A DNA stretch of 32,602 bases. Source: a filamentous cyanobacterium Phorm 6. Lineage in GTDB: Bacteria > Cyanobacteriota > Cyanobacteriia > Cyanobacteriales > Microcoleaceae. This document shows positions 4,607 to 23,084 of the stretch, piece by piece. A program made the position numbers and the translations under genes. The stretch's first letter is position 1. Every line of letters begins with the position of its first letter. The DNA lies in the NCBI GenBank assembly GCA_003003725.1, contig PVWI01000034.1:1-32602 (forward strand), written 5' to 3'. The notes beneath the pieces are model-generated. The model saw nothing but the letters and a program-made list of their open reading frames with translations. It had not been told where the DNA came from and searched no databases.

Positions 4607-6412
4607 TTATTCCCAATCAAACTTTCTCCCCAAATACTCCTCTAATTCCTGATTGTAAGGTTTAAAATAATCGCTCAAGCAGCAGCGAACCGACTCATTT
4701 ACTCGCAGATAAGAACCGGGATTAGCATTTTGATATTCAGACAATTGATATTCCGGCAAATTTAAGAATTCTAAAACTTGCTGAACAGTCGCCGCCGCAT
4801 TTGCATAAAAATCTTCACTTTTCAAAATTAATAACTTTTGTTTGGGAAAGAAAGCCAGCCAATTTTTAATAAATTCTATATACCTACCGCGAGCTAAATA
4901 ATTCCCCGGTTCTTCGCCGATGATGTATTCTGGATTTTGATTCAACCGTTCAATTTCATCCTTAATTGCCCGATCGAGCGATCGCCCTTCCCAATTTAAC
5001 TCCCTCAAGCGGTAGAATTGAGAAATAGCGCGATCGACCGGATTTCGCAACAGCACAATCAGTTTCGCCTCTGGACAGGCGCTGTAGAGACGTTCCGGCG
5101 CTTCCCGACAGTCAAAATAACTCGGACTTGCCTCACCCGTTACAAACTCCTCTCCCTCCGGCATTAGGGGAAAATGAGCCAAATACCAATCAATCCCTCT
5201 GTCAAAGTGCCACGAGCAAAAATCCATCTCCTTTTTAATCGGAGTCAAAATTTGCGGGTGTTGAGCTAAATAAGTGTACAGGGAAGTTGTGCCGCACCGC
5301 TGGGAACCAATAATTATAAAATTAGGAAATTTAACTGTATCTGTTGTTTTTGTGACAGGCATCTTACCTGTATTTTTAACAAAAATAGATGCCAAAGTTT
5401 GTTGGTAACTAGCAGTTTGATAACAATCAATCGCCTCAGCAATTTTGCCTTGTCTCGTCAAAACTTCCCCCAAATTCAAATAAGGCCAAAAAGCCTCCGG
5501 TTTAGCTTCAATGACTCCGCGATACAAGTTTTCAACTTCATCCAGCTTGTTTTGCTTAACCAAAACTTCCCACAAATTGTAATAAAACCACCAAGGAATA
5601 TCGGGATTTATTTCTATTGCCTTTAAAAACGATGTCGCCGCTTCATCCCACTTTTTTTGGTGGCTTAAAACAGCACCTAAATTGTAATAAGACCAGCAAT
5701 CATCCGGTTTTTGGGCGACTATTTCGCGAGATGAGGCTAATGTGCTAACGCACTTTTCCTGCTGTTTCAACAACTGCTCTAATTCCGCTGAGACTACAGC
5801 ACAATCTGGCGCAATTGTCAAGAGTATGTTGTAAAGAATAATTGCGCTGTTTGGGCGATCGTACTTTCCTAAATTTTTTCCTAACTGCAAATAAAACTCC
5901 CAATTTTCCGGTGTAATTTGCAATTGACACTGTTCTAATACCAACTTTAAATCAGACGTTGTTTGTCCGAGAACAAATCCCAATTTATCGTAAATTCTGG
6001 GCAAATCTCCGTCAATTTCCACAGCTTTCAAATACGCAGCAATAGCTTCATCCCACTGTTTTAGCTTAGTTAAAGCATCGCCCAAATTGCAAAAAGACCA
6101 AGCAAAATCCGAGTTGAGTGCAATCTCGCAGCGGTAAGCCGCAGCAGCCTCTTCCCATCGCCGAAGTTTCAGCAAAGCATCGCCCAGATTGTGATAAGAC
6201 CACGAAAAATCGGGATTTAACTCAACAGCTTTTTTGTACGCGCAGACAGCTTCCTCCCACCGTTCGAGTTTCACCAAAACATCGCCCAAACAGTGATAAG
6301 ACCACGAAAAATCGGGATGTAAGTCAACAGCTTGTTTGTAAGCAGCAGCAGCCTCATCAAATTTCCCACTTTCTTGCAGGGAATTACCCAAATTATGGTA
6401 CTCATTATCCAT
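4607..6412 (-). CDS. TPR-repeat protein with C-terminal sulfotransferase domain
   Basis: A 601-residue fusion. Residues 1 to about 345 hold TPR units of the NPDFSWSYHNLGDALLKL type. Residues about 360-600 are a PAPS-dependent sulfotransferase: the 5'-phosphosulfate loop IIIGSQRCGTTSLY (366-379) and the 3'-phosphate segment LLRNPVDRAISQFYR (454-468) are intact. It probably transfers sulfate to a glycan or protein, with the TPRs holding partners or substrate; the acceptor is unknown. ATG at 6412 is chosen over TTG at 6427 because AGGAG lies 6 nt upstream. Start and the stop of the upstream TPR-MTase-GT61 gene overlap in ATGGATAA, so translation is likely coupled. No signal peptide is seen, so the protein is presumably cytosolic. 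Confidence 0.9.
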   Translation of the reverse strand: MDNEYHNLGNSLQESGKFDEAAAAYKQAVDLHPDFSWSYHCLGDVLVKLERWEEAVCAYKKAVELNPDFSWSYHNLGDALLKLRRWEEAAAAYRCEIALNSDFAWSFCNLGDALTKLKQWDEAIAAYLKAVEIDGDLPRIYDKLGFVLGQTTSDLKLVLEQCQLQITPENWEFYLQLGKNLGKYDRPNSAIILYNILLTIAPDCAVVSAELEQLLKQQEKCVSTLASSREIVAQKPDDCWSYYNLGAVLSHQKKWDEAATSFLKAIEINPDIPWWFYYNLWEVLVKQNKLDEVENLYRGVIEAKPEAFWPYLNLGEVLTRQGKIAEAIDCYQTASYQQTLASIFVKNTGKMPVTKTTDTVKFPNFIIIGSQRCGTTSLYTYLAQHPQILTPIKKEMDFCSWHFDRGIDWYLAHFPLMPEGEEFVTGEASPSYFDCREAPERLYSACPEAKLIVLLRNPVDRAISQFYRLRELNWEGRSLDRAIKDEIERLNQNPEYIIGEEPGNYLARGRYIEFIKNWLAFFPKQKLLILKSEDFYANAAATVQQVLEFLNLPEYQLSEYQNANPGSYLRVNESVRCCLSDYFKPYNQELEEYLGRKFDWE

Positions 6413-9400
6413 GCGAAACTCCTGCAAGATTCATTAACTTCTCCAGCGATTTCAAATCCAACTGCATATTTTTATGTACGGGTTTTTCAATAGTTCCATC
6501 ATCAAACAAATCACCTATCAAATAGTAATGTTCCAAACCGCATAAATTGCTAATCATCCAATAACAACTTGGAACATAAATCGGAGAAAAAATCTCAATT
6601 ACTTTCGTTCCCGGAGAGCAGAAAACTAGATTAGTCAATCCAGCTCCGTGAGGTGAGATAACTACTTTAGCAGCAGCCAGACACGCTGCTTGCTCCGCTA
6701 CCGACATCGTTTCCAGCTTGACACTGCGAAACCCAAATTTTTCCAGGAAACTCATTACTTCTTCATCGTTGACAATTCGCCGATAAGATGCTTGTTGCCG
6801 ACTGATATAAATTCGTTCTGAATAATCAGTTTTTATGGGCTGTTGTCTAGTTAAAAAAGCTTGTTTAAGATAGTCACATTTCCATTTTGAAACCGCTCCG
6901 GCTCCATCATAAGAAATTGACGGTACTATTAATTTATCTGCTGTAATGTGGAGATTACAACGACTTTCTAAAATCTTATGTTCAGGAATTCCTAAAGTAT
7001 TTAAAGTTTCTTTTTGATAGGCAGAATCGCAGGCGTTGACAACAAACTTATCTATGCTTTCTATTAACCCACTTCTTTGCAAAAGGTCAAATCGTGTCAT
7101 GACATCAAACATCCAATGAAAATAAGCCGCTCCACCCCAACGAGCGGATAAAAAAGCCACATTTCCATCGATGTGATCAACGGGAGGTAATTTGTCGGAA
7201 GTGATGACTAATTCAGCACAACCCATTGAAATATCGCCAACAAGTTTGTTGTCTGAAGTAATGACGGCGGTAGTCACGACATCTGCCCAAGCTCGTCCGT
7301 TTGGTAGTATAGCAACAAAAGCTTTTCTGGTATGAGTTTGGTTGGCCCAAAATCTGTTGTGGCTGTCGGTAGTTTGAGAAGCGGATAAGTTGATTTGACT
7401 GGCTGGATGGATGTCAATACAAGAGATGTTCGGATTTGACTCTGCGGCGATTGCCAAATCCTCTGTAAATCCACAATATTTTTGCAGTACACTTAATGGT
7501 AAGATTTGATTACTGCATTTTTTGCGATCGCTCTCATCGACTTCTCCTTGTTGTTCTAGAGCATAACCGATATTGTCGTAAACTTCAAACAAATCGGGTT
7601 GGATTTGCAGGGCTTGAACTAAATGAGTTATTGCCGCTTCCCACTGCTGTTTGGCAATTAAAGTTAAACCCAATCCTTCGTAACACCAACAGGATTTTGG
7701 TTCTAAATTGATGCCTTTTTCATAAATTGCGATCGCATTTTCCAATTCCCCTTGCTTTCGTAGAGCATCACCCAGCTTTTTGTACAGCCAAATAGTATCC
7801 GGCGACAAATCAACCGCACGGCGAAAAGCAGCCGCAGCTTCGGGCCACTTTTCTTGCTCTTCCAGCACTTCTCCCAAACTATTATATAGCCAACAAAAGT
7901 CAGGATTCAACTCAACAGCTTTGCGATAGGCAATCTCGGCTTCTTCCCAATTTTCCACCGCAATCAAAGCCTTACCCAACTTGTCGTAAGCCCAACAAAA
8001 ATCCGGATTCAATTCAATGACTTTGCGGTAAGCAACAGCAGCTTCTTCCAACTGGGCTAGCTCCATCAACACATCGCCCAAACTGCTGTAAGTCCAACAA
8101 AAATCAGGATTCAACTCAATTGCTTTGCGGTAAGCAGTAGCAGCATCAGAATATTCCTCAATCGCCTGCAAAGTTTCCCCTAAATAGTGGTAAGCCCAAC
8201 TAAAATTTGGATTCAATTGAATTGCCTGTCTGTAAGCACTGAGAGCTTCGTCGAATAGTTCTTTTTTTTGCAAAACTTTACCCAACTTGTGGTAAGATGA
8301 GTAAGTTCCCGACTTAATTTTAATTGCTGTTTGATAGCGTTCGATCGCCTCATCGACATAACCCGCGTTTGCCGCTATATCTCCCAACTTTTCCCAGCCT
8401 TGAGAAACTAGAGCTTGCTCTTTACCCAAGTTTTGATTACCGATTTTTTTGACAATCAGTTGATAGCCTTTATGAACCACTTCTAACTGACTTGCAAACA
8501 TCTCCAAGAAAAGATTGATGCCGATTTTAGTATCTTGCTCCGGGCTGTCGGGAAACGTAAATTCGTAGTCATCAAAAATCATCAATCCGCCAACTTTCAC
8601 CAACCTCCAAGATAAAATCGCATCTTGCAGAACACTGGTGGGTTTGTGACAGCCGTCAACGTAAGCAATATCGTAATATTCCGAAGTCAAATTCACTAAT
8701 AAATCTTGAGAATAGCCTTCTAATTCAATTACTTTATCTGCTACCCCTGTTTTTGCAATATTACCCTTAAAATCTTGTTGGAAATACAAATCAATGCAAG
8801 TAATTTTTGCCGTCGGATGAGTTAAAATATTATCCAACAGCCAACAAGCAGACATTCCTTGAAAACTGCCGATTTCCACCACTTGAAAATCTGCAATTCC
8901 CGTAAATTGCTGCAAATGTCGTTGCCAAATCGGGATATTATGGGTGAACCAATCCTGCGTAAACTGGTAATTTTTCGTCGCACATTCAACCCAACCTCTC
9001 AATTCGCTGGCTTTTTGGTGACAGACAATCGCTTCCTCCAATTCGCCTAATTGTGGTAGAATGTTTCCTAAATCGTTGTAGGCTTGAGAATCATTCGGGG
9101 CGATCGCAATTTGGTGACGATAAGTGGCAATTTGTGCATATAACTCCTGCTGTTTCCGGCGCGCCTCATCCAGTTTGGCGACAACTTCCGCAGCGTTTGG
9201 TTCGATTTGCAGCGCCATGCTATAAAAAACGATCGCACCTTCCAACTGTTTCTGCTTAGCTAAACTATTTCCTAAATTTAGATAAAACTCCGTTCCCTCC
9301 AACTCAATTCCCAGCAATTTGTGGTAAGTTTTCCCGCTCGCGAGTACCTCAACAGCTTGACAATAAGTTTCAATTGTGCTGTCTAAACCCGATTCGCTGC

Positions 9401-10496
9401 GTTTCCGCAAAACATATCCCAATCTCTGATTAATTCCCGTCAAATTCGGCTGAAGCTGAACCGCGTGCAGGTAAGCCGCAACAGCTTCATCCCAGGATTT
9501 TTCGCAAGTTAAGGCAATTCCCAAATTGAGGTAAAACCAAGGAATACTTGGATTTAATTCGATCGCTTTGTGGTAACAACTAATAGCTTCTTGCCATAGC
9601 TTTTTGTGAGCCAAAGCTTCACCTAAATAATTGTGCGCCCAAGCGGAATTGCCGTTAATGTTAATCGCTTGACGGTAACAGTTAATTGCAGTATCAAACT
9701 CGCTTTTTTGCGCCAAAACATTGCCCAAACTCAGGCAAGCACGAGCGTAATTTGGATTGATTTCGATGCTTTTGCGGTGACAGGCAATTGCCCGATCTAA
9801 TTCTCCTTGAGCCGCCCAAGTTTTACCCAAACTGTGGTAAGATTCAAAGGCGTTGGGGTTGATTTCAATAGCTTTTCGATAATTGGCGATCGCATCTTCC
9901 CACTTTTTTTCACGAAACAGCATTTCCCCCAAATTATGATATGCTATGGAGAACGTTGGATCGATTTGAATTGCCCGCGAATAACACTCGATCGCGCGAT
10001 CGAACTTTGCTTGTTCAACTAGATTATTTCCCAGACTGACGTGTTCCTCAGCCGTAGCCCAATTCGGCTCAATTTTAAAAGCTTGATACCAATACTCTGT
10101 AGCTGTTTCGCGTTTTTGTAACTGCGTCCAAACTCGCGCTAACTGTCGGTAAGCATCAGCAAGGTTCGGTGCGAGAGAAATTGCTTTTTCACAAGCTGCG
10201 ATCGCCTTTTCCCACTGTTTCCCTTGAGAATACAGACTGCCGAGATTAGCGTAAACTTCCGGTAAATTGGGATTGCGATCGATCGCAGCTTCATACCACT
10301 GCTTAGCTTGCTCGATTTCACCTCGAACCTCCATCACCTTCCCCAGCGTCTGACAAGCTGTCGCCAAATTCGGCTGAATTTTCAATGCTGACTCACACGC
10401 AGCCACCGCCTCATTTAACCTACCTTCAGCTAAATAAACTTCTGCTTGCCGACTCAAATCAACCACTGCTTTTTCCATCTTCTCAATCGAGGGCAT
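6405..10496 (-). CDS. Giant TPR - methyltransferase - TPR - GT61 glycosyltransferase protein
   Basis: About 1363 residues in four blocks: TPRs (about 10-500), a class I SAM methyltransferase of the Methyltransf_24 kind (about 535-685; motif I VVEIGSFQGMSACW, then TCIDLYF, IAYVDGCHK and GGLMIFDDYEF), a second TPR run (about 700-985), and a C-terminal GT61/DUF563 glycosyltransferase (about 1055-1355; GGAAYFHWMFDVMTRFDLL and SPHGAGLTNLVFCSPGTKVIEIF). ATG at 10496 has GGAG 11 nt upstream; TTG at 10520 would add eight residues and has poorer support. It starts 24 bp after the preceding TPR-GT61 gene and its stop overlaps the following sulfotransferase gene. Role is inferred: transfer of a sugar to an acceptor plus methylation of glycan or substrate. 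No membrane segment or signal peptide is evident. Confidence 0.9.
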   Translation of the reverse strand: MPSIEKMEKAVVDLSRQAEVYLAEGRLNEAVAACESALKIQPNLATACQTLGKVMEVRGEIEQAKQWYEAAIDRNPNLPEVYANLGSLYSQGKQWEKAIAACEKAISLAPNLADAYRQLARVWTQLQKRETATEYWYQAFKIEPNWATAEEHVSLGNNLVEQAKFDRAIECYSRAIQIDPTFSIAYHNLGEMLFREKKWEDAIANYRKAIEINPNAFESYHSLGKTWAAQGELDRAIACHRKSIEINPNYARACLSLGNVLAQKSEFDTAINCYRQAININGNSAWAHNYLGEALAHKKLWQEAISCYHKAIELNPSIPWFYLNLGIALTCEKSWDEAVAAYLHAVQLQPNLTGINQRLGYVLRKRSESGLDSTIETYCQAVEVLASGKTYHKLLGIELEGTEFYLNLGNSLAKQKQLEGAIVFYSMALQIEPNAAEVVAKLDEARRKQQELYAQIATYRHQIAIAPNDSQAYNDLGNILPQLGELEEAIVCHQKASELRGWVECATKNYQFTQDWFTHNIPIWQRHLQQFTGIADFQVVEIGSFQGMSACWLLDNILTHPTAKITCIDLYFQQDFKGNIAKTGVADKVIELEGYSQDLLVNLTSEYYDIAYVDGCHKPTSVLQDAILSWRLVKVGGLMIFDDYEFTFPDSPEQDTKIGINLFLEMFASQLEVVHKGYQLIVKKIGNQNLGKEQALVSQGWEKLGDIAANAGYVDEAIERYQTAIKIKSGTYSSYHKLGKVLQKKELFDEALSAYRQAIQLNPNFSWAYHYLGETLQAIEEYSDAATAYRKAIELNPDFCWTYSSLGDVLMELAQLEEAAVAYRKVIELNPDFCWAYDKLGKALIAVENWEEAEIAYRKAVELNPDFCWLYNSLGEVLEEQEKWPEAAAAFRRAVDLSPDTIWLYKKLGDALRKQGELENAIAIYEKGINLEPKSCWCYEGLGLTLIAKQQWEAAITHLVQALQIQPDLFEVYDNIGYALEQQGEVDESDRKKCSNQILPLSVLQKYCGFTEDLAIAAESNPNISCIDIHPASQINLSASQTTDSHNRFWANQTHTRKAFVAILPNGRAWADVVTTAVITSDNKLVGDISMGCAELVITSDKLPPVDHIDGNVAFLSARWGGAAYFHWMFDVMTRFDLLQRSGLIESIDKFVVNACDSAYQKETLNTLGIPEHKILESRCNLHITADKLIVPSISYDGAGAVSKWKCDYLKQAFLTRQQPIKTDYSERIYISRQQASYRRIVNDEEVMSFLEKFGFRSVKLETMSVAEQAACLAAAKVVISPHGAGLTNLVFCSPGTKVIEIFSPIYVPSCYWMISNLCGLEHYYLIGDLFDDGTIEKPVHKNMQLDLKSLEKLMNLAGVSHG

Positions 10497-10520
10497 AATT
10501 AAACTTGCTCCAGACGCCAA

Positions 10521-13322
10521 CTAACTCAAACCCACCACTTCAAGCATTCTTTTCAGCGAACTCAAGTTCACCAAAATATCCTCTGTCAAAGAATTCTGAT
10601 ACATCAACTGTCTAATAGGATAGCATTCAAAACCCTCGCCAGCCAAGTAATAATGTTCCAACTTCAGATATTGACTAATTCCCCAGTAATAATGACTGAT
10701 ATAGTGCGGCGAAACTAACTCAATTACTTTAGTTCCAGATTGACAAAAAATCGTATTTGTCAAGCCGCTACCGTGGGCGGCAACTATCACCTCAGCATGG
10801 TAAAAATGAGCAATTTGCTCAGCCAAAGACATCGACTCAGGCAAAATAGAAACAAACCCAGATTGTGCCAAAACCTCAACCACATCTTCCTCATTCAAAA
10901 CTCGGCGGTATCTCGCTTTGCTGCGGCTGATGTAAATGCGCTTTGGATAACTATAACTAGGTAGAATTCCCTTCAGAAACTCCCTCCTCAAAAACTCGAT
11001 CGCCCACCCGGGCGGCCAGCCCAAATATCCCGCAAAAGAAGGTACAATTAACTCTGTTGCTTGAATATGAGGCAGGCGATCGCTCTCCAAGACTTTCTCC
11101 TCTGGAATCCCCAGAATCCTGAGACTTTCCCGCTGAAATTCGTGCTGACAACTATTAACCAAAAACCAATCAATCTCCGCCAAATCCCTACCACTGCGCC
11201 GCAGCAATTCGAGCCTCGGCAAAACGTCCACCATCCAGTGAAAATAAACATTTCCCGACAAACCAGAAAGCACCGCCACCTTACCTTCAATCTGCTTTAA
11301 GGGTGGAAATGATTCTAAGTTAAAAACACTATGTTTTCTCACATCATGCTTTTCGCATCCCGGCAAAAATCCCGGATAATCTCTAGACACATCAGCCAAT
11401 AAATAGTTGTCAGGAGTCATAACTGCGATCGCCTTACAAATCAGCCAATAATTTTCCTTTGGTACAATCCAAACTCGCCCATTCGGAATTGTAGCAACGA
11501 AAGTCTTCGGCGACTCCACGGGTAGAGGTTGCGAGTTAGATAAACGGCAAACTCCCCAACCTAAATGTACCGGATCGAACCACTTAGAAATTCGGTGCAA
11601 ACACATCCCGCAAGTTAAACCACCACAATCGGAATTGCGGAATTGGGAATTGAGAATTGGGAATTGGGAATTGGTAGTATTTTCTGTTGTGGCTTCCGTC
11701 TCATATTTCCAAACTATTTCTACATAATTGCCATCCAACTTAGCAGCAACCAACCAATCCCAAGTCGATAGATAAATACCTTGAGGAAGTTTGATCGCAC
11801 TTGGTTCGAGTGCAATACAATCATTTTTTAGCGATAGTAGCGGCTGCGAATACCCGTGAAATTGTAACTCTAAAACCTGTTGATAATAATCGATCGCCTT
11901 TTCACAATTTCCCTGTTTATCCTGCACTTTTCCCAACTCAAAATAAACCTGCGGTAAAGCAGGTTGAACCGTCAAAGCCATGCGGTAAACTGCAATTGCC
12001 GCATTTAGCCGCTTTTGCTGTACCAAGCAATTGCCCAACCGCCAGTAAAGCTCGGTATTTTTCGGCTGAATTTGCAAAGCTTTTTGGTAATAAGCAGCGG
12101 CTGATTCATATCCGCCGTACTCTGTTAAAGCATTCCCCAAATGCAGGTAAATTTCTGCTAAGTAATCGCATATTTCAGCAATTTGTAATTGGGAATCGGG
12201 CATCGGGCATCGGGCATCGGGAATGGTTTCTTTTTCTTCCTTCTTCCTTCTTCCTTCTTCCTTCTTCCTTCTTCCTTCTTCCTTCTTCCTTCCAGTTAAT
12301 GCTGCCAGAAATCGATCGCACGCAGCGATCGCCCTTGACAATTCATCATCTTCTACAGCAGCAACTCTGCGGCTTTTAGCTAAACGGGAGTAAGCCTCAA
12401 TAAAATTGGGCTTAAGAGCTATTGCCCGCTCAAAATAAGGCATGGCTTCAGCAATTTTGCCCAAAACCATCAAAGAAAATCCGGCGTCCGTATAGCCCGA
12501 AATATGCTCGGTATCGAGTTCGATCGCGCGATCGAAACAAGCAACCGCCGCCAAATGTTCCCCCTGCATTTGCCAAGCTTTCCCCAGATTGTAATGAGCC
12601 AAAACCATCTCCGGTTCCAACTCAATAGCCCTGAGATAAGATCCGATCGCCCTTTCGGGACTTTTGTCGAGCAATACCTGCGCTAAATTATTGTGCAGCG
12701 TCGCCCAATCCGGCTTAATCTCGATCGCCCGTTGGTAAACATCGATCGCCTCAGCAGCCCGATCGTCCTTCAGCAAAATCGCGCCCAGATTGCTGTAAGC
12801 TTCCACATAATCCGGCTTCAGATCGATCGCCTGTCGGTAAGTATTAATTGCCGCTTCAAGCTGATTATTCTGATCTAAAACCACAGCCAGATTGTAGAAA
12901 GCAAGTAGATAATTAGGTTTAAGAGCGATCGCACTTCGGTAACAGTCGATCGCCCCCAACAAATTACCCTGCTTGTGAAAAACATTTCCCAAGTTATAAT
13001 TAACTTCCGGCCAATCTGGCTTCAAATCCAGAGCTTGCCGGTAGTGAAAAACCGCCTCATCCAGCCACGAATACTCGCTATAAAGTTGACCCAAATAAGC
13101 ATGAGCCCGAAAAAAATTTGGCGAAATCTCCAAAGCTTGCACAAAAGCATCTCTTGCCGCCGTCGGATCGCCGCTCGAAGCGAGGATTTCGCCTAGAGTT
13201 GTATAAGCCAGCGGCGAAAATGGCTGTAGTTCGATCGCCTGATGGCAAAACTCGATCGCCTCTGTTAACTTCCCCTGGTTCAGATAAACTTGGGCTTGCC
13301 GGATGTATTCTTCAGTCGTCAT
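10521..13322 (-). CDS. TPR - GT61 glycosyltransferase protein with two heptamer-encoded inserts
   Basis: 933 residues. TPR units fill about 1-490 (for example LKPDYVEAYSNLGAILLKDD), and a GT61/DUF563 glycosyltransferase occupies about 600-915, with GNVYFHWMVDVLPRLELL and AAHGSGLTNTIFCQSGTKVIEL matching the equivalent segments of the next gene. Two low-complexity inserts interrupt it: residues 345-379 (RRKKEEG repeats, then a Pro/Asp-rich piece) read from arrays at 12190-12293, and residues about 551-565 (NSQFPIL type) from 11631-11674. The frame stays open through both. ATG at 13322 begins MTTEEYIRQAQVYLNQGKLTEA, like the N-termini of the sister proteins. First gene of the three-gene cluster; likely cytosolic; acceptor unknown. 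Confidence 0.9.
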   Translation of the reverse strand: MTTEEYIRQAQVYLNQGKLTEAIEFCHQAIELQPFSPLAYTTLGEILASSGDPTAARDAFVQALEISPNFFRAHAYLGQLYSEYSWLDEAVFHYRQALDLKPDWPEVNYNLGNVFHKQGNLLGAIDCYRSAIALKPNYLLAFYNLAVVLDQNNQLEAAINTYRQAIDLKPDYVEAYSNLGAILLKDDRAAEAIDVYQRAIEIKPDWATLHNNLAQVLLDKSPERAIGSYLRAIELEPEMVLAHYNLGKAWQMQGEHLAAVACFDRAIELDTEHISGYTDAGFSLMVLGKIAEAMPYFERAIALKPNFIEAYSRLAKSRRVAAVEDDELSRAIAACDRFLAALTGRKKEEGRRKKEEGRRKKEEKETIPDARCPMPDSQLQIAEICDYLAEIYLHLGNALTEYGGYESAAAYYQKALQIQPKNTELYWRLGNCLVQQKRLNAAIAVYRMALTVQPALPQVYFELGKVQDKQGNCEKAIDYYQQVLELQFHGYSQPLLSLKNDCIALEPSAIKLPQGIYLSTWDWLVAAKLDGNYVEIVWKYETEATTENTTNSQFPILNSQFRNSDCGGLTCGMCLHRISKWFDPVHLGWGVCRLSNSQPLPVESPKTFVATIPNGRVWIVPKENYWLICKAIAVMTPDNYLLADVSRDYPGFLPGCEKHDVRKHSVFNLESFPPLKQIEGKVAVLSGLSGNVYFHWMVDVLPRLELLRRSGRDLAEIDWFLVNSCQHEFQRESLRILGIPEEKVLESDRLPHIQATELIVPSFAGYLGWPPGWAIEFLRREFLKGILPSYSYPKRIYISRSKARYRRVLNEEDVVEVLAQSGFVSILPESMSLAEQIAHFYHAEVIVAAHGSGLTNTIFCQSGTKVIELVSPHYISHYYWGISQYLKLEHYYLAGEGFECYPIRQLMYQNSLTEDILVNLSSLKRMLEVVGLS
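11631..11674. repeat. Degenerate GGGAATT heptamer tract inside a coding region
   Basis: Six or so GGAATTG/GGGAATT units lie inside the TPR-GT61 gene between its TPR part and the glycosyltransferase domain. The translated product resembles the GAPDH tail (NSQFPI), since both derive from the same heptamer read on the same strand. Confidence 0.9.
12190..12293. repeat. Two adjacent heptamer arrays (GGGCATC and TTCTTCC) inside a coding region
   Basis: Positions 12190-12225 hold GGGCATC-type units; 12234-12289 hold eight perfect TTCTTCC units plus a partial one to 12293. On the coding strand they encode a highly charged RRKKEEG heptapeptide repeat followed by DARCPMPDSQ. They interrupt the TPR region at about residue 345. 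Confidence 0.95.
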
Positions 13323-13489
13323 TGCTTGCGGTGCAGTTGCGGTTGCTTTACCGCTTCAGTAAAACCTAGAAATTCTGATTTAAAAACTTTGTATGTATAT
13401 TTTGCCCGATCGGGCGATCTACTAATTTTATCAATAACTGTCGATCGATTTTTTTTTAATTGTTCCTGCTTCAGTTCCTGCCTTGAATG

Positions 13490-13528
13490 TTTCAACCTCA
13501 CCCCGCTTGTGGCAGAGTGAGGTTGAAA
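13490..13528. terminator. 12-bp inverted repeat, possible terminator of the RTX gene
   Basis: TTTCAACCTCAC (13490-13501) pairs perfectly with 13517-13528 around a 15-nt loop. It lies 74 bp beyond the RTX gene stop and 168 bp before the TPR-GT61 start, all on the minus strand. No T-run follows directly on either strand, so an attenuator or repeat-element origin is equally possible. Confidence 0.45.
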
Positions 13529-13601
13529 TCCTTTAAAACTACCAGCCTTGTGAGAACAGCCCCAGAGGTCATCCAGTGCTGCCCCACAAATGCCAGTTGT
13601 T

Positions 13602-14456
13602 TTAGAACAGCTCGAAGTTGTTCGAGGTAATCGTCAAGTTAGGTGCCAGTCGAGCAACCTCTAGCACTCCATTTGCGCCGTTGAAGAACAACGCACCGCT
13701 TGTTGGGTCGTAGACCAACTTGTTCGTTGTGGCTCCTGGGGAGTTTGCGTTGAAATTAGAAACAACGACAAACTCGCTAGCTTCAAAGTTCGTGCCCAAA
13801 CCAGCGAACACACCCCCGGACTTCAAGCGGATCTTATCTTCAGCAGGCGTAAAGTCAGTGATCGTGTCTACCCCATAATCGCCACCGCTGGAGAAGAAGT
13901 AGAACGTATCGCTGCCAGCACCGCCGGTCAGGACATCGCTGCCTCTGTCGCCAGAGATAAAGTCATTGCCAGCACCACCATCGACAGTATCATTATCTCT
14001 ACCACCGTAGAGGCTGTCGTTGCCGTCGCCGCCGCTAACTAAATCATTGCCTTTGCCGCCAAAGGCTGTATCGTTGCCGGCACGGCCCAAGATGGTATCG
14101 TTCCCGTTGTCGCCAGACAGCAAGTCATTGCCATCACCGCCGTCGATCAGGTCATTGCCTTTACCGCCAAAGATCCTGTCGTCGCCGCTGCCGCCAGCGA
14201 CCACATCGTTGCCAGTGCCTGCAAAGATATCATCATTGCCGCTGCCGCCGCCGATACTGTCATTGCCGCCGCCGGAAATAATCAGGTCATCGCCACCGCG
14301 ACCAGATATGGCATCATTGCCCCCAAAAGTGAGGATAATATCACCTTGTTCGGTGCCGTTCAACCGGTTATCACCAGAAGTACCAATCACATCAAGACCC
14401 CTCGTGGGGTTTGGAACTGAAGATACTGGGGTCGTTGGATTAGTTACCTGAGTCAT
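13602..14456 (-). CDS. RTX-type calcium-binding repeat protein
   Basis: 284 residues. After a Thr/Pro-rich N-terminus (1-20), residues about 27-185 consist of some fifteen consecutive RTX nonapeptides of the GGxGNDxhx type, which bind Ca2+ in a parallel beta roll. A non-repeat C-terminal domain (about 190-284) begins DTFYFFSSGGDYGVDTITDF and ends NNFELF, the usual context for type I secretion of such proteins. No Sec signal peptide is seen, consistent with a C-terminal secretion signal. ATG has a strong GGAGGAG SD. It is likely extracellular or surface-bound. It precedes the TPR-glycosyltransferase cluster on the same strand, separated by 279 bp with an inverted repeat, so it is probably a separate transcript; a role as substrate of that cluster is only a hypothesis. 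Confidence 0.9.
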   Translation of the reverse strand: MTQVTNPTTPVSSVPNPTRGLDVIGTSGDNRLNGTEQGDIILTFGGNDAISGRGGDDLIISGGGNDSIGGGSGNDDIFAGTGNDVVAGGSGDDRIFGGKGNDLIDGGDGNDLLSGDNGNDTILGRAGNDTAFGGKGNDLVSGGDGNDSLYGGRDNDTVDGGAGNDFISGDRGSDVLTGGAGSDTFYFFSSGGDYGVDTITDFTPAEDKIRLKSGGVFAGLGTNFEASEFVVVSNFNANSPGATTNKLVYDPTSGALFFNGANGVLEVARLAPNLTITSNNFELF

Positions 14457-15482
14457 TTACACTCCTCCTAAAAGATGAATCATTTTTCTACAATACACTT
14501 TTCCCTCCAAAGGGATTCAGTAATTGAAACCGGACATCGGCTGAGACCCTAATTTACCCGGCTGCTATAAGCTGTCATGTAATTTAAATTGTCAGCAGGG
14601 AGCCGCCGGTCGCGAGTTGAATCCTGTATTCGTTGAGCCGGAAATATCGGTTGTTTCCTGCCTTGGACTCTCGACTTGACCACTCCCTCCTCTAACATGA
14701 AAATATTCCAGTTAAACGTTTGTGAGTTTACCATACCGAGCCTGGGTGCGGCTAGTCATTTTAAAAATATTAGCCGGAAAATACACATAAACCATTTTTA
14801 ATTGGAATATGCTCTCAAGATTGAGAAATTGCAGCCCAGTCGTCGGTAACTGTCGATCGCCCCAAAGTTCGATCGCCCACAATCGAGCCATAACCGAGTT
14901 GCGACTCTTCAGTGGACTCTGGTTTACCAGACTTTTGAGTTTCCCTAATAGTTCCCAAGAAATCAAAATTTTTCAGCCTGCCTTCAAAGCCAACTCATCC
15001 CGCCCGCACCGTATCCAATCAAACCCAGCTAGAGAAATCGATTGAAGCCTTTTACCCTTAAAGCTTGTAGTCGCAAAAAAATTGACTGATCCGCAACAAA
15101 GTCGATGATCCGCTTGAAAAGCACCATCACCTGCCCAGGCCCAGAACTAAGCTGCGGAGCATCTTAATTGTCGTCTGTTGACTAGAGGCTAATTTTCAAA
15201 CAGACTAAATCTTTGAGCATCCCATTTTGGCAAATATATTCCCTATGGCCGAAGCATTGCGGCAGTATGTCTGCGCTGATAACTCATAAATGATCTGCCC
15301 GAATGCTTCGCCCCTCCAAAATTCAGACACTACGCCCCGAGCCTCAGTAAGTTTCCATATAATTAAATTTAACTAAATTATGTTTCTAGCAAACATTTTA
15401 TCGCTAATTGTTAAGTTCGGGGTGAACATTAACAACTAGCAATTTCCCAGAAATTTGGTTCAGTATTCATAGACAAGCTGTA
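14457..15482. other. 1-kb stretch without a recognisable gene
   Basis: Upstream DNA of the RTX gene. Short open frames exist on both strands but have no SD, no recognisable motif and odd composition. The only structured part is a hairpin at 15408-15435. No tRNA or known small RNA was recognised. Confidence 0.6.
15408..15435. repeat. Imperfect palindrome, possible terminator or operator
   Basis: TTGTTAAGTTC (15408-15418) pairs with GAACATTAACAA (15424-15435) with one bulged base and a 5-nt loop. It is 47 bp beyond the stop of the small membrane protein on the minus strand. No T-tract follows, so terminator function is uncertain. Confidence 0.4.
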
Positions 15483-15671
15483 CTATTTATCTGAGCGGTG
15501 TGCTTCAAGTTGCGCTGTTGACCCGTTAGTATGACTCTGGTTGTCGTAGTTGTAGATGTGAGCATCACTCTGGGAAATGTAATTTATAGAACTCGCTGCA
15601 TAGTAAATCAGCGCTAGCAGCGACACTAGATTAAGAATGCGATGAATTGGTTTCTCTGACATTTCGTGCAT
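15483..15671 (-). CDS. Small single-pass membrane protein, unknown function
   Basis: 62 residues starting MHEMSEKPIHRIL. ATG at 15671 has AGGAG 5 nt upstream, which is the main evidence for a real gene and rules against the longer frame from 15722. One hydrophobic segment (about 11-30, LNLVSLLALIYYAASSINYI) follows a short charged N-terminus; the rest is polar with His/Asn/Ser. Family not recognised. It stands alone in a repeat-rich region. Confidence 0.55.
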   Translation of the reverse strand: MHEMSEKPIHRILNLVSLLALIYYAASSINYISQSDAHIYNYDNQSHTNGSTAQLEAHRSDK

Positions 15672-15881
15672 TTTCACTCCTACTTTGTATCCAAATAGCA
15701 AGGTTGAATATAATGACTGCACTTTTTTCTACAAGTTCCCAAGAATGCAGCACCAGATAAAACATCCATTCCATCGCGTTATGCACTCCCGATTCTCGAT
15801 CGCCTCAAACAAGTCTTACTCTAGATTCAACGGAAATTGCAGGTCTAATTAGCATGGCAATCTCTGCCTTTAAATGTCTTA

Positions 15882-16009
15882 TATAGCGGTTCTAAAAAAA
15901 GTGAGGTATGCCCTATGCCCTATGCCCTATGCCCTATGCCCTATGCCCTATGCCCTATGCCCTATGCCCTATGGCGGATAGTACGTCATCTTTCTGAGAC
16001 TCGGCTATA
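15882..16009. repeat. Palindromic element, copy 1, with nine ATGCCCT units in its loop
   Basis: Outer arms TATAGCGGTTCT / GAGACTCGGCTATA and inner arms AAAAAAAGTGAGGTA / GTACGTCATCTTT are inverted. Between them are nine perfect ATGCCCT heptamers (15908-15970). Copy 2 (17917-18013) has nearly identical arms but a different tandem sequence. It looks like a non-autonomous palindromic repeat; no protein gene is inside. Confidence 0.85.
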
Positions 16010-16039
16010 TACAGCATATTCCATGTAGATGTAGTATGG

Positions 16040-16102
16040 AGAAACCGGGTTTCTTGAACGGTATCATTTTCTACCCAAGAACTGTAAAGAAACCCGGTTT
16101 CT
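16040..16102. repeat. Inverted pair of 16-bp GAAACCGGGTTTC repeats
   Basis: AGAAACCGGGTTTCTT (16040-16055) and its reverse complement (16087-16102) flank 31 bp. Each arm is itself nearly palindromic. A related sequence occurs at 17646-17668, so this is a dispersed family. Confidence 0.8.
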
Positions 16103-16592
16103 GGGGTGTACTATTTGGACTATATCGAACTCTACAATTACCTGATCGAGAGCTGCCAAAATTAAAAAAATGAGTTGTAAAAGCTTGCACCGCAAAGAAT
16201 AAAGCTGTTTTAAAATAGTAAGCAAACATTTTACTAAATTCGATCGTGCGCAATCGTCGAAAGCAATAAAAATGATCGACGTTGAAAAAACACAAAAATA
16301 TATCTAAAGTTAGAGTTTTGTAAGTGACAAGCTGTGTAATGCGGTTCTGCGTAAGTCCTGATTAAGTCATGATGTCACAGAAAAAAGTGGCACAAAAAAA
16401 CAGAATCTAGAATTTGAAGGTCGTAAAAAATTACTGTTTGGTAATTCAGCATTTTTATTGTATTCGACTTTCTAGCTGCGTTTTGCGGCCACTATGCAAA
16501 GTAATGATTTGTTGGCTGCGAGGAGCCATGCACGGGGGATAATCTATGACGAGACAACAGATTGTGTTTAAGTCAGTTACTTAAACAGTTTA

Positions 16593-16811
16593 TTAGAAGT
16601 TTTGCTCGGATTTAGCGGCCTGTACAACCGACTTCTTGCTAGTAATTTGTAAAATAGATAGGGGCAGAACAACAGGCCAAACCAGAGGCCCGATTACTAA
16701 GGCTATCCAAGAAATCAAGTCTTTTTTAGATGTTGCAGTATCTTTCCAAAAACTTTTGAACCAAACAAAAAAAACGATTAAGGCAATCGAAAAGTAGCCT
16801 ATGATTATCAT
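16593..16811 (-). CDS. Small two-segment membrane protein, unknown function
   Basis: 72 residues: hydrophobic segment 1 (about 2-18, IIIGYFSIALIVFFVWF), a short charged linker (KDTATSKKDL), hydrophobic segment 2 (about 33-55, ISWIALVIGPLVWPVVLPLSIL) and a polar C-terminus. The clean pattern of two membrane helices around a basic linker supports coding; the SD is weak (GGTCAG). It resembles short cyanobacterial hypothetical membrane proteins, but no function is known to me. Confidence 0.6.
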   Translation of the reverse strand: MIIIGYFSIALIVFFVWFKSFWKDTATSKKDLISWIALVIGPLVWPVVLPLSILQITSKKSVVQAAKSEQNF

Positions 16812-16922
16812 TGTTTTACTGACCAGCTCATAGATGGGATTAAACTATTTATCATTATTGTAAGCTGTCGCGGATTTAAATTGTATATTCAGGGCGGGTT
16901 CTCCCACCCCGCAAGACGTTGC

Positions 16923-16957
16923 TTTTTTTGACATACAGTTTTTTTTGACATACAGTT
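16923..16957. repeat. 17-bp tandem duplication (T-run plus GACATACAG)
   Basis: TTTTTTGACATACAGTT occurs twice in direct succession, spaced 17 bp. Confidence 0.85.
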
Positions 16958-17175
16958 TAAATGCAGAACAGCTTATCTCAGGGTGCCGATCGCCAGTTTC
17001 GGCCACCAAAGCTGCAAATGTCCACAGCCCAAAGTTTCAAAAGTCTCCGAATCTAGATTGTGCCATACGATCGATCGCACCGCACTCAAAATCTTGGACT
17101 CAGGACTTTTCGAGGTTTCATCAAACTTTGAGCCGATCGACCCCAGTTACACCAAATGCGATATGTCTCATGTAT

Positions 17176-17191
17176 TGTGACTTGAATCACA
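17176..17191. promoter_or_regulatory. CRP-like palindrome TGTGA-N6-TCACA
   Basis: TGTGACTTGAATCACA fits the consensus half-sites of CRP-family cAMP receptor proteins, which cyanobacteria possess (SyCRP1). It is 121 bp before the start of the small gene at 17313. A further TCACA lies at 17232-17236, 45 bp on. Binding by a CRP protein is inference. Confidence 0.5.
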
Positions 17192-17312
17192 TACACTCGC
17201 AGACTTCGATCGTAAGTTGAGCTAAGAAGGATCACATAGGTTAGCCGACTGCCATCACCCTACTCTGTTTTCAAATGCTCGATATTAGAGTAGTTGAATT
17301 AAAAAGTATTTC

Positions 17313-17510
17313 ATGCAAGCTTTGACTTTAAAATCCGACTGCGCGATCGCTGAATTGTTCTATCAAGTCACCCATTCAGGCAATCTGACTCGGACTCAAA
17401 GCCACGGACTGCGGACACTCTGTGAAAGCGCTCTCAGCCAAGACGACCGAGATGCAGTCAACCGCCTGCTTCATGCAATCCGCCGCGGATGGGTCAGGAT
17501 TTCCGATTAG
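17313..17510 (+). CDS. Small conserved-type protein, paralogue A
   Basis: 65 residues, no membrane segment. It aligns without gaps over most of its length with the product of 18300-18500: xIAELxxQVxHSG, LTxTxxxxL, and the C-terminal block AVNRLLHAIRRGWVRISD versus AINRLLHAVRRGWLKVVD. Conservation at protein level with divergent DNA supports both as genes. The alpha-helical, basic C-terminus suggests a binding or adaptor role, but function is unknown. A CRP-like site lies upstream and a hairpin with a T-run downstream. Confidence 0.75.
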   Translation: MQALTLKSDCAIAELFYQVTHSGNLTRTQSHGLRTLCESALSQDDRDAVNRLLHAIRRGWVRISD

Positions 17511-17645
17511 TCCCCTCAGACAGCAACTTGAGGCTGGTATTTCTACATTCTCTCCTCCAAAACTTTGCCAGCAATCAGATTTTCGTGAGTGTGCCCCTCC
17601 ATTAACCCTCTGACAAAATATCCTGCTGCGATCGTTTCAATCGAA

Positions 17646-17675
17646 CCCGGTTTCTCGAAGAAGCCGGGATTTTTG
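17646..17675 (+). terminator. Hairpin followed by a T-run, probable Rho-independent terminator
   Basis: CCCGGTTTCT (17646-17655), loop CGA, AGAAGCCGGG (17659-17668) with one G-T pair, then ATTTTTG. It is 136 bp beyond the stop of paralogue A. The arms belong to the dispersed GAAACCGGG family, so a repeat may have been co-opted. Confidence 0.55.
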
Positions 17676-17727
17676 ATCTGAAGCAGTCAGCAGTAATATC
17701 AATTCCGGTTACACCCGTACCGAAATT

Positions 17728-17758
17728 GTTGACAGTTGACTGTTGACTGTTGACTGTT
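17728..17758. repeat. GTTGACT/GTTGACA heptamer tract
   Basis: Four or so heptamer units, the reverse-complement family of the array at 1387-1444. Confidence 0.85.
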
Positions 17759-17916
17759 TGAAAAATACCGATGCAACCGCAAACGATCTAATTAAGTAGA
17801 TATACGGAAAAACAATTACACCAAGACACTCAGTAAATATAGCCAAATCCGAGTTCTTAAATACAGTTAGAGTTTTACGTTTAATTAAGTCGATCGATAT
17901 TATTTAGCAGTTATTA

Positions 17917-18013
17917 TATAGCGGTTCTCAAAAAAGTGAGGTATGCCCGCAAGCCCGCAAGCCCGCAAGCCCGCAAGCCGGATAGTACCTCATCTTTATG
18001 AGACTCGGCTATA
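17917..18013. repeat. Palindromic element, copy 2, with four GCCCGCAA units in its loop
   Basis: The arms match copy 1 (TATAGCGGTTCT, GTGAGGTATGCCC, GGATAGTAC, TCATCTTT, GAGACTCGGCTATA) but the loop carries four octamers (17945-17976) instead of heptamers. Pairing TATAGCGGTTCTCA / TGAGACTCGGCTATA and GTGAGGTA / TACCTCAT gives a long stem. Confidence 0.85.
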
Positions 18014-18106
18014 ATTTATTTGTTAATAAATATCATTTCATTTATTATGTTCTATTAACAAGAACTACAGATATCGGAGTTGCCAAAAGCGAGGAATCGG
18101 GACGGA

Positions 18107-18154
18107 GTTTGTATTTATAGTTGCTCTCTCGTTTGTATTTATAGTTGCTCTCTC
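18107..18154. repeat. 24-bp perfect tandem duplication
   Basis: The 24-bp unit beginning GTTTGTATTTATAG and ending CTCTCTC is present twice without a mismatch, 18107-18130 and 18131-18154. Confidence 0.95.
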
Positions 18155-18194
18155 GATCGAAGAAACCTGCGATCCCAAATCCGGTTGATACAAA

Positions 18195-18244
18195 TCACAA
18201 ATCAAGACCGAATAGATCACATTTACTCACGTATTTGAATCACA
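18195..18244. promoter_or_regulatory. Three TCACA motifs spaced 22-23 bp
   Basis: TCACA at 18195-18199, 18217-18221 and 18240-18244, about two helical turns apart, end 56 bp before the start of paralogue B. The middle one (TCACATTTACTC) matches TCACATACACTC upstream of paralogue A. Operator function is inference. Confidence 0.4.
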
Positions 18245-18299
18245 TAAATATGCATAAAATCAGTCAATACTGTCAAAAGTGAGTTCAAGAAAAAACATC

Positions 18300-18500
18300 A
18301 TGATGACACAAACGCTTTTATCTCAATTTACTATTGCAGAGCTAGTTTTTCAGGTATATCACTCCGGTCTGCTGACCCCCACTCACAGACAACAGCTCAA
18401 AACAGCACTCTTAGATGACTGCCTTACCGAAGAAGATCAAACAGCCATCAACCGCTTGCTCCACGCCGTTCGGCGGGGCTGGCTGAAAGTAGTAGATTAG
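18300..18500 (+). CDS. Small conserved-type protein, paralogue B
   Basis: 66 residues from ATG at 18300 (MMTQTLLSQFTIAEL). This start places the IAEL motif at the same residue number as in paralogue A (17313-17510), so it is preferred over GTG at 18279. The C-terminal block INRLLHAVRRGWLKVVD is shared. A hairpin follows the stop. No function recognised; the two genes look like an old local duplication. Confidence 0.75.
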   Translation: MMTQTLLSQFTIAELVFQVYHSGLLTPTHRQQLKTALLDDCLTEEDQTAINRLLHAVRRGWLKVVD

Positions 18501-18605
18501 ACTGTACACCAATATTTTTTGCCACTCCTCTTTCAAATACATTGCATCACCTGAAGGCAAAATTAAATCTCCTCAGCCAATAGATTCAGGAATTAGGTTA
18601 AATGT

Positions 18606-18634
18606 AGGGTGCCCCACCAGCACCCTGCGGTTTT
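18606..18634 (+). terminator. Short hairpin with T-run after paralogue B
   Basis: AGGGTGC (18606-18612), 7-nt loop, GCACCCT (18620-18626), then GCGGTTTT. It lies between the convergent stops of paralogue B (18500) and the pentapeptide-repeat gene (18657), so it may end plus-strand transcription. The sequence also resembles a common dispersed repeat. Confidence 0.45.
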
Positions 18635-18656
18635 AAATTCTTTTTTACCAGCTTAT

Positions 18657-21476: not shown

Positions 21477-23075
21477 TTGAGTCGTCAGCTAGTGCCAGAT
21501 TTCATGGAGAATGGGAAAAATTTTGCTGATGACCGTGAGGAGATCGGCGTTGGAATCGCGGATAATATAGAAGAAGGTCGATCGCACTTACCGTCGAGTT
21601 TGGTTTGGGCGATCGCGATTGCTGCAATAATTTTCTTTTTGTCTAGCAGTTTACGGCACGCCTTATTCCAATCAACAGCCTTCGATTTGGGGATTTTTGA
21701 CCAAGCAATTTACTTAATCTCCCAAAACCAAACGCCGTTTTCTTCTTTGATGGAGATGCACATTTTGGGAGATCACGCAGCGGTAATCTATTATCCGCTG
21801 GCTTTGCTGTACAAAATTTACCCTGATGTGCATTGGCTGCTGTTAGTACAAGCAGTTGCTTTATCGCTAGGGGCTTTGCCTAGCTGGAGTTTAGCGCGTT
21901 TGGCCGGCTTAAATCAAGTACAATCCCGTGCGATCGCCATAATTTATTTGCTGTATCCGGTGGTATTCAACATCAACTTATTTGATTTTCACCCGGAAGT
22001 GATCGCTTTACCCGCACTGTTAGCAGCAATCTTGGCGGCGCGCCTAAATAAACTGGTGTGGTTTTGTACCGCAATTTTATTAGTTTTGAGTTGCAAGGCT
22101 GTTTTGTCCATAACCGTTGCTGCGATGGGTTTATGGCTGTTTTTTTGCAAAAAAAAGCAACGATTAGGGGCGATCGCACTTTTGCTCGGTGTAGCATGGT
22201 TTTTGATAGCATCCCAAAAAATCATCCCCTACTTTAGCGGTAGCGAAGTCGCAGGAGTCGGGCGCTACAGCTATTTAGGCAAATCCGTCCTAGAAATCAT
22301 CATCAACCTCATATTAAAACCCCAGCTAGTATTAGGAAAAATCCTTTCATTCGACACATTAAAATACTTATTTATCCTCACCTTACCCGTATTTTGGCTG
22401 TTACTGCCATTCTCCCACAAAATCCACCTTAAATATTTAACAGCCCTAATTCCTGCAATCCCTACCTTAATTATCAACATCCTCTCCGACTTGCCATTTC
22501 AACGCAGCTTAGCCTATCAATATTCAGTGCCAATCATTCCATTTTTAATCTTAGCAATCATCGCCAAAGCAGCAGCAATAAAAAACGCAGATCAAGCTAC
22601 ATCGCTAAATTCAGAAAATATTCACTCACCTAAAACCGCAAATCTACAATTTAAAAATATCCAAATCCCGCAACTGTGGCTGGGAATGCAATTACCCAAA
22701 GCAATGATAATTTGGTCATTAATAATTTTCCTATTGCTGGGAGAATCCAAAGACTTTATTCTGTACGCAAATAGACTAGATACCTGGCAAGCCACACGGG
22801 AAGCAATCGCAAAAGTTCAACCCCAAAGCAGTATTTTAACAGATAATAGACTTGCCCCTCACTTTGCCCACCGCCCCACAGTCAAATTACTTTCACAAAT
22901 TTCACCCCAAACAAATTTAGCTGAATTTAAATACATATTATTAAATCTTCGCCATCCCTGGCCCGATACAGAAAAAACTGGTAACACCTTAGCAACTAAA
23001 CTTAAAAACAATCCCACTTTTCAATTAACTTATCAAAAAAACGAAGTTCTACTATTTAAACGCATCGCCGATTAA
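21477..23075 (+). CDS. DUF2079 membrane protein, paralogue 1
   Basis: 532 residues with around ten membrane segments. Conserved blocks shared with the next two genes: RHALFQSTAFDLGIFDQAIYLISQ, GDHAAVIYYPLALLYKIYPDVHWLL and LFDFHPEVIALPALLAAI (each read in parts). Acidic and His residues in these loops resemble the organisation of GT-C membrane glycosyltransferases, to which DUF2079 may be related; substrate is unknown. TTG at 21477 has AAGGA 8 nt upstream; ATG at 21504 is the alternative. Compared with its paralogues it has about 30 extra N-terminal residues, mostly acidic. First gene of a three-gene tandem. Confidence 0.85.
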   Translation: MSRQLVPDFMENGKNFADDREEIGVGIADNIEEGRSHLPSSLVWAIAIAAIIFFLSSSLRHALFQSTAFDLGIFDQAIYLISQNQTPFSSLMEMHILGDHAAVIYYPLALLYKIYPDVHWLLLVQAVALSLGALPSWSLARLAGLNQVQSRAIAIIYLLYPVVFNINLFDFHPEVIALPALLAAILAARLNKLVWFCTAILLVLSCKAVLSITVAAMGLWLFFCKKKQRLGAIALLLGVAWFLIASQKIIPYFSGSEVAGVGRYSYLGKSVLEIIINLILKPQLVLGKILSFDTLKYLFILTLPVFWLLLPFSHKIHLKYLTALIPAIPTLIINILSDLPFQRSLAYQYSVPIIPFLILAIIAKAAAIKNADQATSLNSENIHSPKTANLQFKNIQIPQLWLGMQLPKAMIIWSLIIFLLLGESKDFILYANRLDTWQATREAIAKVQPQSSILTDNRLAPHFAHRPTVKLLSQISPQTNLAEFKYILLNLRHPWPDTEKTGNTLATKLKNNPTFQLTYQKNEVLLFKRIAD

Positions 23076-23084
23076 ACGAATAAA

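Follow-up and report, generated by a model that had tools for sequence, protein, structure and literature searches.

Genes for TPR-Borne Glycosyl-, Methyl- and Sulfotransferases Accompany a Candidate RTX Protein Substrate in a Filamentous Cyanobacterium

As judged from sequence comparison and gene order, a subfamily of RTX proteins is tied in several cyanobacterial families to TPR-bearing GT61 enzymes of group A (TPR-GT61-A), and in the window analyzed here (32,602 nucleotides, part of the 6.64-Mb draft genome of the filamentous cyanobacterium Phorm 6) as well as in a related genus the pair is accompanied by a TPR-methyltransferase-GT61 and a TPR-sulfotransferase. With somewhat more confidence than doubt, it is proposed that these genes represent a dedicated protein-decorating operon, in which the TPR enzymes would glycosylate, methylate and sulfate the RTX protein before its type I export. 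An enzyme set that probably attaches sugars to an RTX protein, and methylates and sulfates them, prior to export would constitute a new kind of protein-decorating line, and the genomic tie between the RTX subfamily and TPR-GT61 names candidate enzyme-substrate pairs.

Organization of the Gene Block

Three consecutive minus-strand genes encoding TPR fusion proteins had been described in the initial annotation, and the corresponding ORFs are present, with Pfam domains above cut-off. Gene A (10521-13322) encodes TPRs and a C-terminal GT61 domain (group A), whereas gene B (6405-10520) encodes TPRs, a Methyltransf_24 domain, further TPRs and a GT61 domain (group B); both assignments are based on Pfam. 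Gene C (4607-6427) encodes TPRs and a PAPS sulfotransferase, as assigned by Pfam. The ORFs of genes B and C as listed start at TTG, and the next in-frame ATG codons, at 10496 for gene B and 6412 for gene C, are the likely starts. With these codons, the reported spacing of 24 bp between genes A and B followed by an overlap of 8 bp between genes B and C was reproduced.

The block extends one gene beyond that description. Upstream of gene A and codirectional with it, a gene encoding an RTX calcium-binding protein of 284 aa was found on the minus strand (13602-14456), recognized by Pfam PF00353, composition and a C-terminus profile; its product is the proposed substrate. The RTX gene and gene A are separated by a structured spacer with two strong hairpins (13323-13601, minus strand), delineated by its folding z-score and a consensus of nine loci. 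On the other side of the RTX gene, about 4 kb (14457-18656) contain short ORFs only, and three consecutive genes encoding DUF2079 membrane proteins are located on the plus strand at 21477-26112. Seven-base tandem repeats occur inside gene A, between its domains (11631-11674, 12191-12224 and 12234-12292), where they preserve the frame and are read as low-complexity linkers, and elsewhere in the window at 53-153 and 15907-15973; repeat units in the window are GGAATTG, GGGCATC, TTCTTCC and TATGCCC.

Domains and Structural Models of the TPR Enzymes

Glyco_transf_61 (PF04577, curated cut-off 27 bits) was assigned to residues 693-867 of gene A (E 1.7e-31, 109.8 bits) and to residues 1133-1308 of gene B (E 5.4e-30, 104.9 bits). 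Furthermore, Methyltransf_24 (PF13578) was located at residues 548-652 of gene B (E 8.1e-20; 72.1 bits versus a cut-off of 26.3) and Sulfotransfer_1 (PF00685) at residues 369-563 of gene C (E 3.7e-18; 66.3 bits versus a cut-off of 22), and Pfam detected TPR arrays in each of the three proteins. Hence, GT61 and sulfotransferase, the domains on which the initial annotation had staked its reading, are supported by HMM search. Gene B features the sequence VVEIGSFQG at 547, presumably the SAM glycine motif, and gene C features IIGSQRCGTTSLYTYL at 372 and LLRNPVDRAISQFY at 459, which we take to be the nucleotide loops of a PAPS sulfotransferase and which look intact.

His695, Arg800 and Arg806 (gene A numbering) are invariant in 16 of 16 GT61 rows, and the motif HG[SAG]G[LI]TN is likewise kept in all 16. 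Two UDP-binding Arg residues and an acceptor-side His are named for EOGT and POMGNT2 in the accessible portion of PMC13123520; in the present enzymes, the second Arg was located via the POMGNT2 alignment, the first Arg and the His via spacing and motif in comparison with the published description. Three residues ahead of the His, where the eukaryotic N-R-R triad has its Asn, all 16 rows have V, I or A, and an Asn one residue earlier than the triad position occurs in 8 of the 16. Since GT61 members of Proteobacteria are likewise described as devoid of the triad Asn (PMC13123520, accessible portion), this residue is seen as a mark of the eukaryotic subtype and not of GT61 as a whole. In the PDB, the GT61 profile reaches only POMGNT2 and EOGT at E 0.01 (best values 9.8e-8 and 1.2e-6), enzymes that, according to the same portion of PMC13123520, act on proteins or protein-bound glycans. 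In the PDB, gene C matched two heparan sulfate enzymes, with E 2.7e-24 for 3-O-sulfotransferase and E 1.1e-22 for N-sulfotransferase, and since heparan sulfate sulfotransferases are its closest matches, the acceptor of the gene C product is likely a sugar.

The model of the gene A product reached a mean pLDDT of 78 and a pTM of 0.72 and contains about twelve TPRs, counted from the helices of the model, whereas the model of the last 872 residues of gene B reached 71 and 0.52, respectively. For both models, the best PDB match was O-GlcNAc transferase (E 8.6e-19 for gene A). The Foldseek results for both are dominated by the TPR arm, with TPR proteins throughout the best 50 rows listed, and the GT61 domain is modelled with low-to-fair confidence. 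The TPR arms had initially been interpreted as scaffolds; arms that hold the substrate fit better, the top PDB matches of the modelled arm being O-GlcNAc transferase. None of the four proteins, including the RTX protein, has a hydrophobic N-terminus as judged by hydropathy. At residue 196 of gene C, inside the TPR region, a 19-residue stretch is hydrophobic at 1.81 and readable as a membrane segment.

The length of the TPR arrays, in which an excess over catalytic need could be read, would also suit arms whose main role is to chaperone the RTX protein for export, the catalytic domains being regulatory or vestigial. This explanation is considered very improbable, given that HG[SAG]G[LI]TN, the His and both Arg residues are conserved throughout the GT61 rows and that the presumed nucleotide loops of the sulfotransferase appear intact. 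A further alternative is that the enzymes tailor an exopolysaccharide or an LPS-like surface glycan, the RTX protein being a co-regulated matrix partner and not the acceptor. GT61 includes polysaccharide enzymes, e.g., of plant xylan (PMC13123520, accessible portion), gene C resembles heparan sulfate enzymes, which act on polysaccharide, and genes for LptF/LptG and an ABC ATPase (at 28645) lie 14 kb from the block on the opposite strand. It is nevertheless regarded as unlikely, because no polymerase, flippase or lipid-carrier transferase is encoded among the four genes, the TPR superhelix is of the O-GlcNAc transferase type, and the pairing described below is to one RTX subfamily.

The RTX Partner Protein and the Spacer

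The RTX protein was assigned to PF00353 with E 4.5e-33, has a pI of 4.05 and contains no Cys; its traits, i.e., PF00353 repeats, acidity, absence of Cys and, as judged by hydropathy, absence of a Sec signal, fit an RTX-repeat protein. Its ATG is preceded by AGGAGGAG, representing a ribosome site. The RTX repeat family is the only Pfam family above cut-off for the partner RTX protein, and no NCBIfam family was above cut-off. The last 125 residues of partner RTX proteins align across the family, and an end motif is common to 52 of 54 partner RTX proteins versus 1 of 16 other RTX ORFs; on the basis of these alignments, the RTX partner is regarded as a distinct subfamily. In addition, the motif NPTxP at the N-terminus was considered as a general recognition or acceptor mark and rejected: it was present in 36/54 partners of the family and 4/16 other RTX ORFs, and in 1/18 linked RTX proteins from the class level or from plasmids.

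A profile of the C-terminal stretch, termed A1, was built from 11 partners including the window gene and a second RTX gene of the same genome, located on contig C21. In its own genome, A1 yielded at least 38 matches (150 of 195 candidates scored), two of which were strong, namely the window gene with 158.6 bits and the C21 gene with 152.1 bits; the third-best match listed reached 50.3 bits. Both strong matches adjoin GT61-A genes.

The spacer (fold z -5.26) was compared over nine loci including the window, and 6 of the 54 predicted pairs of the consensus showed a compensatory change. An intrinsic terminator between the RTX gene and gene A was considered and discarded: none was present on the coding strand in a scan of 13200-14900, and the two conserved hairpins are devoid of a T run. 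The hairpins may represent a processing or attenuation element, and the spacer is a possible expression divider. Combined with the RTX ribosome site, such an arrangement would suit the production of much substrate and little enzyme. Type I secretion is the route to be expected for a protein with these sequence features. A Pfam scan of 16 window proteins revealed no type I exporter, the ABC gene mentioned above being adjacent to LptF/LptG. In the draft genome, 19 HlyD-like matches were recorded, all below the curated cut-off, and weak matches also occurred in 13 of 14 control genomes.

Conservation of the Block in Related Cyanobacteria

The four-gene block is conserved in Microcoleus and Tychonema and, more distantly, in Kamptonema. 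Around gene B, 31 loci of relatives were fetched. Gene B is present in all of them, although split into several frames in two (L051, L054). Upstream of gene A, 23 loci contain an RTX gene, which in one of them (L058) is cut by the contig end; the contigs of the remaining eight stop before that point. Gene C was found in 26 loci, is cut by the contig end in four (L051, L054, L058, L060) and is missing in one of the 31 (L050). As far as the contigs reach, gene order is kept in the 31 loci, except for L050 without gene C, and four loci (L064, L065, L066, L074) contain two tandem RTX genes. An order kept across these loci indicates that the arrangement is more than chance. Thus, the coordinated layout suspected previously is backed by synteny in relatives, and the conservation of neighbors, the second point on which the initial annotation depended, was observed. 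In the three loci of the related genus (L076-L078) the block is preserved with all four genes; the neighbors usual in the genus of the window, i.e., GAPDH, SbtA, peroxiredoxin and Uma2, were not found in the stretches fetched there, which reach about 4 kb downstream. L079 and L080, from another genus of the family, are devoid of an RTX gene; they feature two TPR-sulfotransferase genes as well as two GT61-B ORFs with TPRs or fragments.

Linkage of RTX and GT61 Genes within the Family

In the loci fetched around GT61 matches, 50 of 69 testable GT61-A genes were preceded within 2 kb by an RTX gene of the same orientation, versus 0 of 62 GT61-B genes. A gene was regarded as testable if its contig continued for 1.5 kb or more upstream, and 12 GT61-A and nine GT61-B genes at edges were set aside. 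Three loci (L171-L173) were chosen with knowledge of a nearby RTX gene, and without them the GT61-A count is 47/66. In 20 arbitrarily placed 19-kb regions of relatives, serving as control, only one RTX was present among 306 ORFs. About half of the remaining GT61 loci are near copies from one genus, and therefore the GT61 tree is the better measure of independence. On this tree of 133 GT61 domains (19 edge rows dropped), which was computed by a quick method and has several open forks, the RTX label requires four changes as compared to a mean of 42.5 after shuffling. Within one GT61 clade, RTX is present in 55 of 66 rows; nine of the other 11, which have no RTX in reach, form one subclade.

Starting from the RTX side, 67 of 87 listed A1 matches of at least 101 bits in the family (f1) have a listed GT61-A gene downstream on the same strand within 6 kb. 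The other 20 comprise nine at a contig edge and 11 that are unexplained or located beside an unlisted GT61. At 20 other RTX loci of the genus no GT61 match was found nearby, showing that many RTX genes are unlinked. These loci were hand-picked, omitting RTX places known at GT61 loci, and therefore represent no independent control; moreover, the repeat pattern recognized RTX in 12 of the 20, and at least two (L200, L204) end close behind the RTX gene.

The pairing of GT61-A genes with one RTX subfamily favors, at the level of gene neighborhoods, protein glycosylation of a candidate substrate. Accordingly, the earlier wording 'surface glycan or glycoprotein' can be narrowed to protein glycosylation of the candidate RTX substrate. 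The clade members without a nearby RTX gene would be accommodated if the TPR enzymes modified other surface proteins and the RTX product bound or anchored the modified glycan as a lectin or matrix component, and certain RTX toxins are reported to act as weak lectins (PMC3034196, accessible portion). This explanation is judged distinctly unlikely: among the candidates scored, the full-score C-terminus is confined, within this genome, to the RTX genes of the window and of C21, both of which are operon-linked, and in a non-systematic look at the loci inspected no other recurring candidate acceptor was seen.

Linkage across the Class

A search of 338 genomes of the class with profile A1 and with the gene A GT61 domain showed GT61-A/RTX pairing in several cyanobacterial families. 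Of 70 GT61 rows from outside family f1 that reached 208 bits or more, 20 had A1 upstream on the same strand within 4.5 kb, or 23 of 73 when three weaker rows are added, which were included for lying near RTX. None of the GT61/A1 pairs recorded class-wide within 20 kb had any other arrangement. Counted by A1 matches, 24 of 140 were linked, and 14 of 30 among those of 84 bits or more. Four families (f9, f40, f55, f56) account for the linked genomes. Four partner-type RTX loci were fetched as seemingly unlinked. Two of them have a TPR-GT61 right behind the RTX gene, namely L246, which adds a fifth family (f8), and L247, in which the two genes overlap by 20 bp as called; no TPR enzyme lies beside the RTX genes of L244 and L245. 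Three loci counted as unlinked (L252, L270, L274) possess a TPR ORF right behind the RTX gene, so that the linked count is low.

By chance, about 0.06 links would be expected class-wide versus the 20 seen among 70. This number bears on plain co-inheritance, i.e., on the notion of an accidental pairing that stems from the sheer number of RTX genes in these genomes. Between 95 and 219 PF00353 matches per genome were indeed reported for 29 genomes of the genus, up to 150 candidates having been scored. As an explanation of the pairing, abundance is disfavored by the class-wide count and by the single RTX among the control ORFs, and the absence of RTX from all testable GT61-B genes likewise speaks against it; an accidental pairing is scarcely credible.

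Proposed Mechanism

Within the proposed decorating operon, the RTX protein would be made in the low-calcium cytosol and stay unfolded there, as a calcium-poor cytosol keeps RTX chains unfolded. In this state, the RTX chain would be held or threaded by the TPR superhelices of the three enzymes, in the manner of the TPR arm of O-GlcNAc transferase, which threads its substrates. The GT61-A enzyme encoded by gene A is predicted to attach the first sugar to the RTX protein, the product of gene B may add a second sugar and/or methylate the sugar, and the product of gene C would sulfate the glycan. Subsequently, the protein would exit by type I secretion and fold with calcium outside the cell, resulting in surface display of a methylated, sulfated glycan, which would be in keeping with a glycoprotein of the oscillin or SwmA type.

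Downstream partners vary by lineage, as would suit a shared initial step that is finished in different ways; in two loci (L151, L164) the downstream partner is a TPR-GT2. A cross-family system is put forward more tentatively, as a serious possibility that falls somewhat short of being the expected outcome. GT61 enzymes with TPRs like those of O-GlcNAc transferase would glycosylate unfolded, cytosolic RTX proteins before type I export, lineage-specific TPR-borne methyltransferase, sulfotransferase and GT2 enzymes would carry out the finishing, and the system could represent the missing machinery for glycosylated RTX motility and S-layer proteins such as oscillin, yielding a bacterial protein-bound sulfated glycan. 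If the proposal holds, GT61 would join the enzyme families of bacterial cytoplasmic protein glycosylation, and a possible gliding or sheath material would be provided by a protein-bound glycan that is both methylated and sulfated.

Comparison with Known Systems

O-GlcNAc transferase and SPINDLY, which are members of GT41, resemble the present enzymes in the long TPR superhelix ahead of the glycosyltransferase and rank first among the structural matches of the model. By Pfam, the present catalytic domain belongs to GT61 and not to GT41, so that the enzymes would work alike without being members. HMW1C-type N-glycosyltransferases, also of GT41, are described as soluble enzymes acting on a secreted adhesin; they differ from the present case in glycosyltransferase family and in export of the adhesin by two-partner secretion. 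EOGT and POMGNT2 share the His and the two Arg residues, and the GT61 profile reaches no other PDB family at E 0.01; they differ in being ER enzymes for which the accessible portion of PMC13123520 describes no TPR arm, and their triad Asn is not at the matching place here.

A further close parallel is FlmG of Caulobacter, whose TPR arm binds flagellin and which performs cytoplasmic O-glycosylation before secretion (PMC7591256, accessible portion). Common to both would be a TPR arm for an exported protein and cytoplasmic O-glycosylation, which for the present operon is proposed from the genes; the GT-B type of the catalytic domain of FlmG may be a further shared trait. Whereas the FlmG substrate is flagellin and no sulfotransferase or methyltransferase partner is described in that portion of PMC7591256, a GT61 domain and an RTX candidate are found here. 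An operon that follows FlmG/O-GlcNAc transferase-like logic with another glycosyltransferase family and another substrate is, by analogy, the best explanation.

Oscillin and SwmA are reported as glycosylated cyanobacterial RTX proteins at the cell surface that are needed for motility (PMC3034196, accessible portion). The partner protein shares the RTX character with them and, under the proposal, would likewise be glycosylated and located at the surface. For Phormidium sp. KS, the accessible portion of PMC4284469 reports no close oscillin homolog, which calls for caution in equating the RTX protein of a gliding cyanobacterium with oscillin. In a phage-resistant Nostoc substrain, a mutation upstream of the RTX gene all3346 is described (PMC10811720, accessible portion). 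Neither a dedicated RTX-glycosylating TPR enzyme nor a system of RTX and TPR-GT61 was found in the literature covered, which comprised titles and abstract openings and few subscription journals. Among the swimming mutants of marine Synechococcus, some reportedly have hits in glycosyltransferase genes.

Second Copies and Plasmids

Related clusters occur on the own contig C21 and on plasmids. Contig C21 contains, on one strand, genes for RTX (631 aa), TPR-GT61-TPR (1728 aa) and TPR-sulfotransferase. The same order of RTX, TPR-GT61 and TPR-sulfotransferase was found on plasmid pOSCIL6304.01 of Oscillatoria acuminata PCC 6304, where the genes are annotated as calcium-binding protein, tetratricopeptide repeat protein and sulfotransferase; Pfam confirms RTX and sulfotransferase, and a domain search confirms GT61. 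On plasmid p3 of Planktothrix agardhii No.365 (L249), genes for GT61, TPR and TPR-sulfotransferase adjoin a plasmid replication gene, in a stretch without an annotated RTX gene, the gene table there being incomplete. The C21 cluster (L004) is located on a 43.6-kb contig featuring ParA-like, recombinase-like and transposase-like ORFs, as read by eye, and may therefore be plasmid-borne, as in pOSCIL6304.01. Another part of C21 (L044:8423-13549) encodes a 1294-aa ORF with PhyH, UbiA and TPR, followed by a TPR-sulfotransferase.
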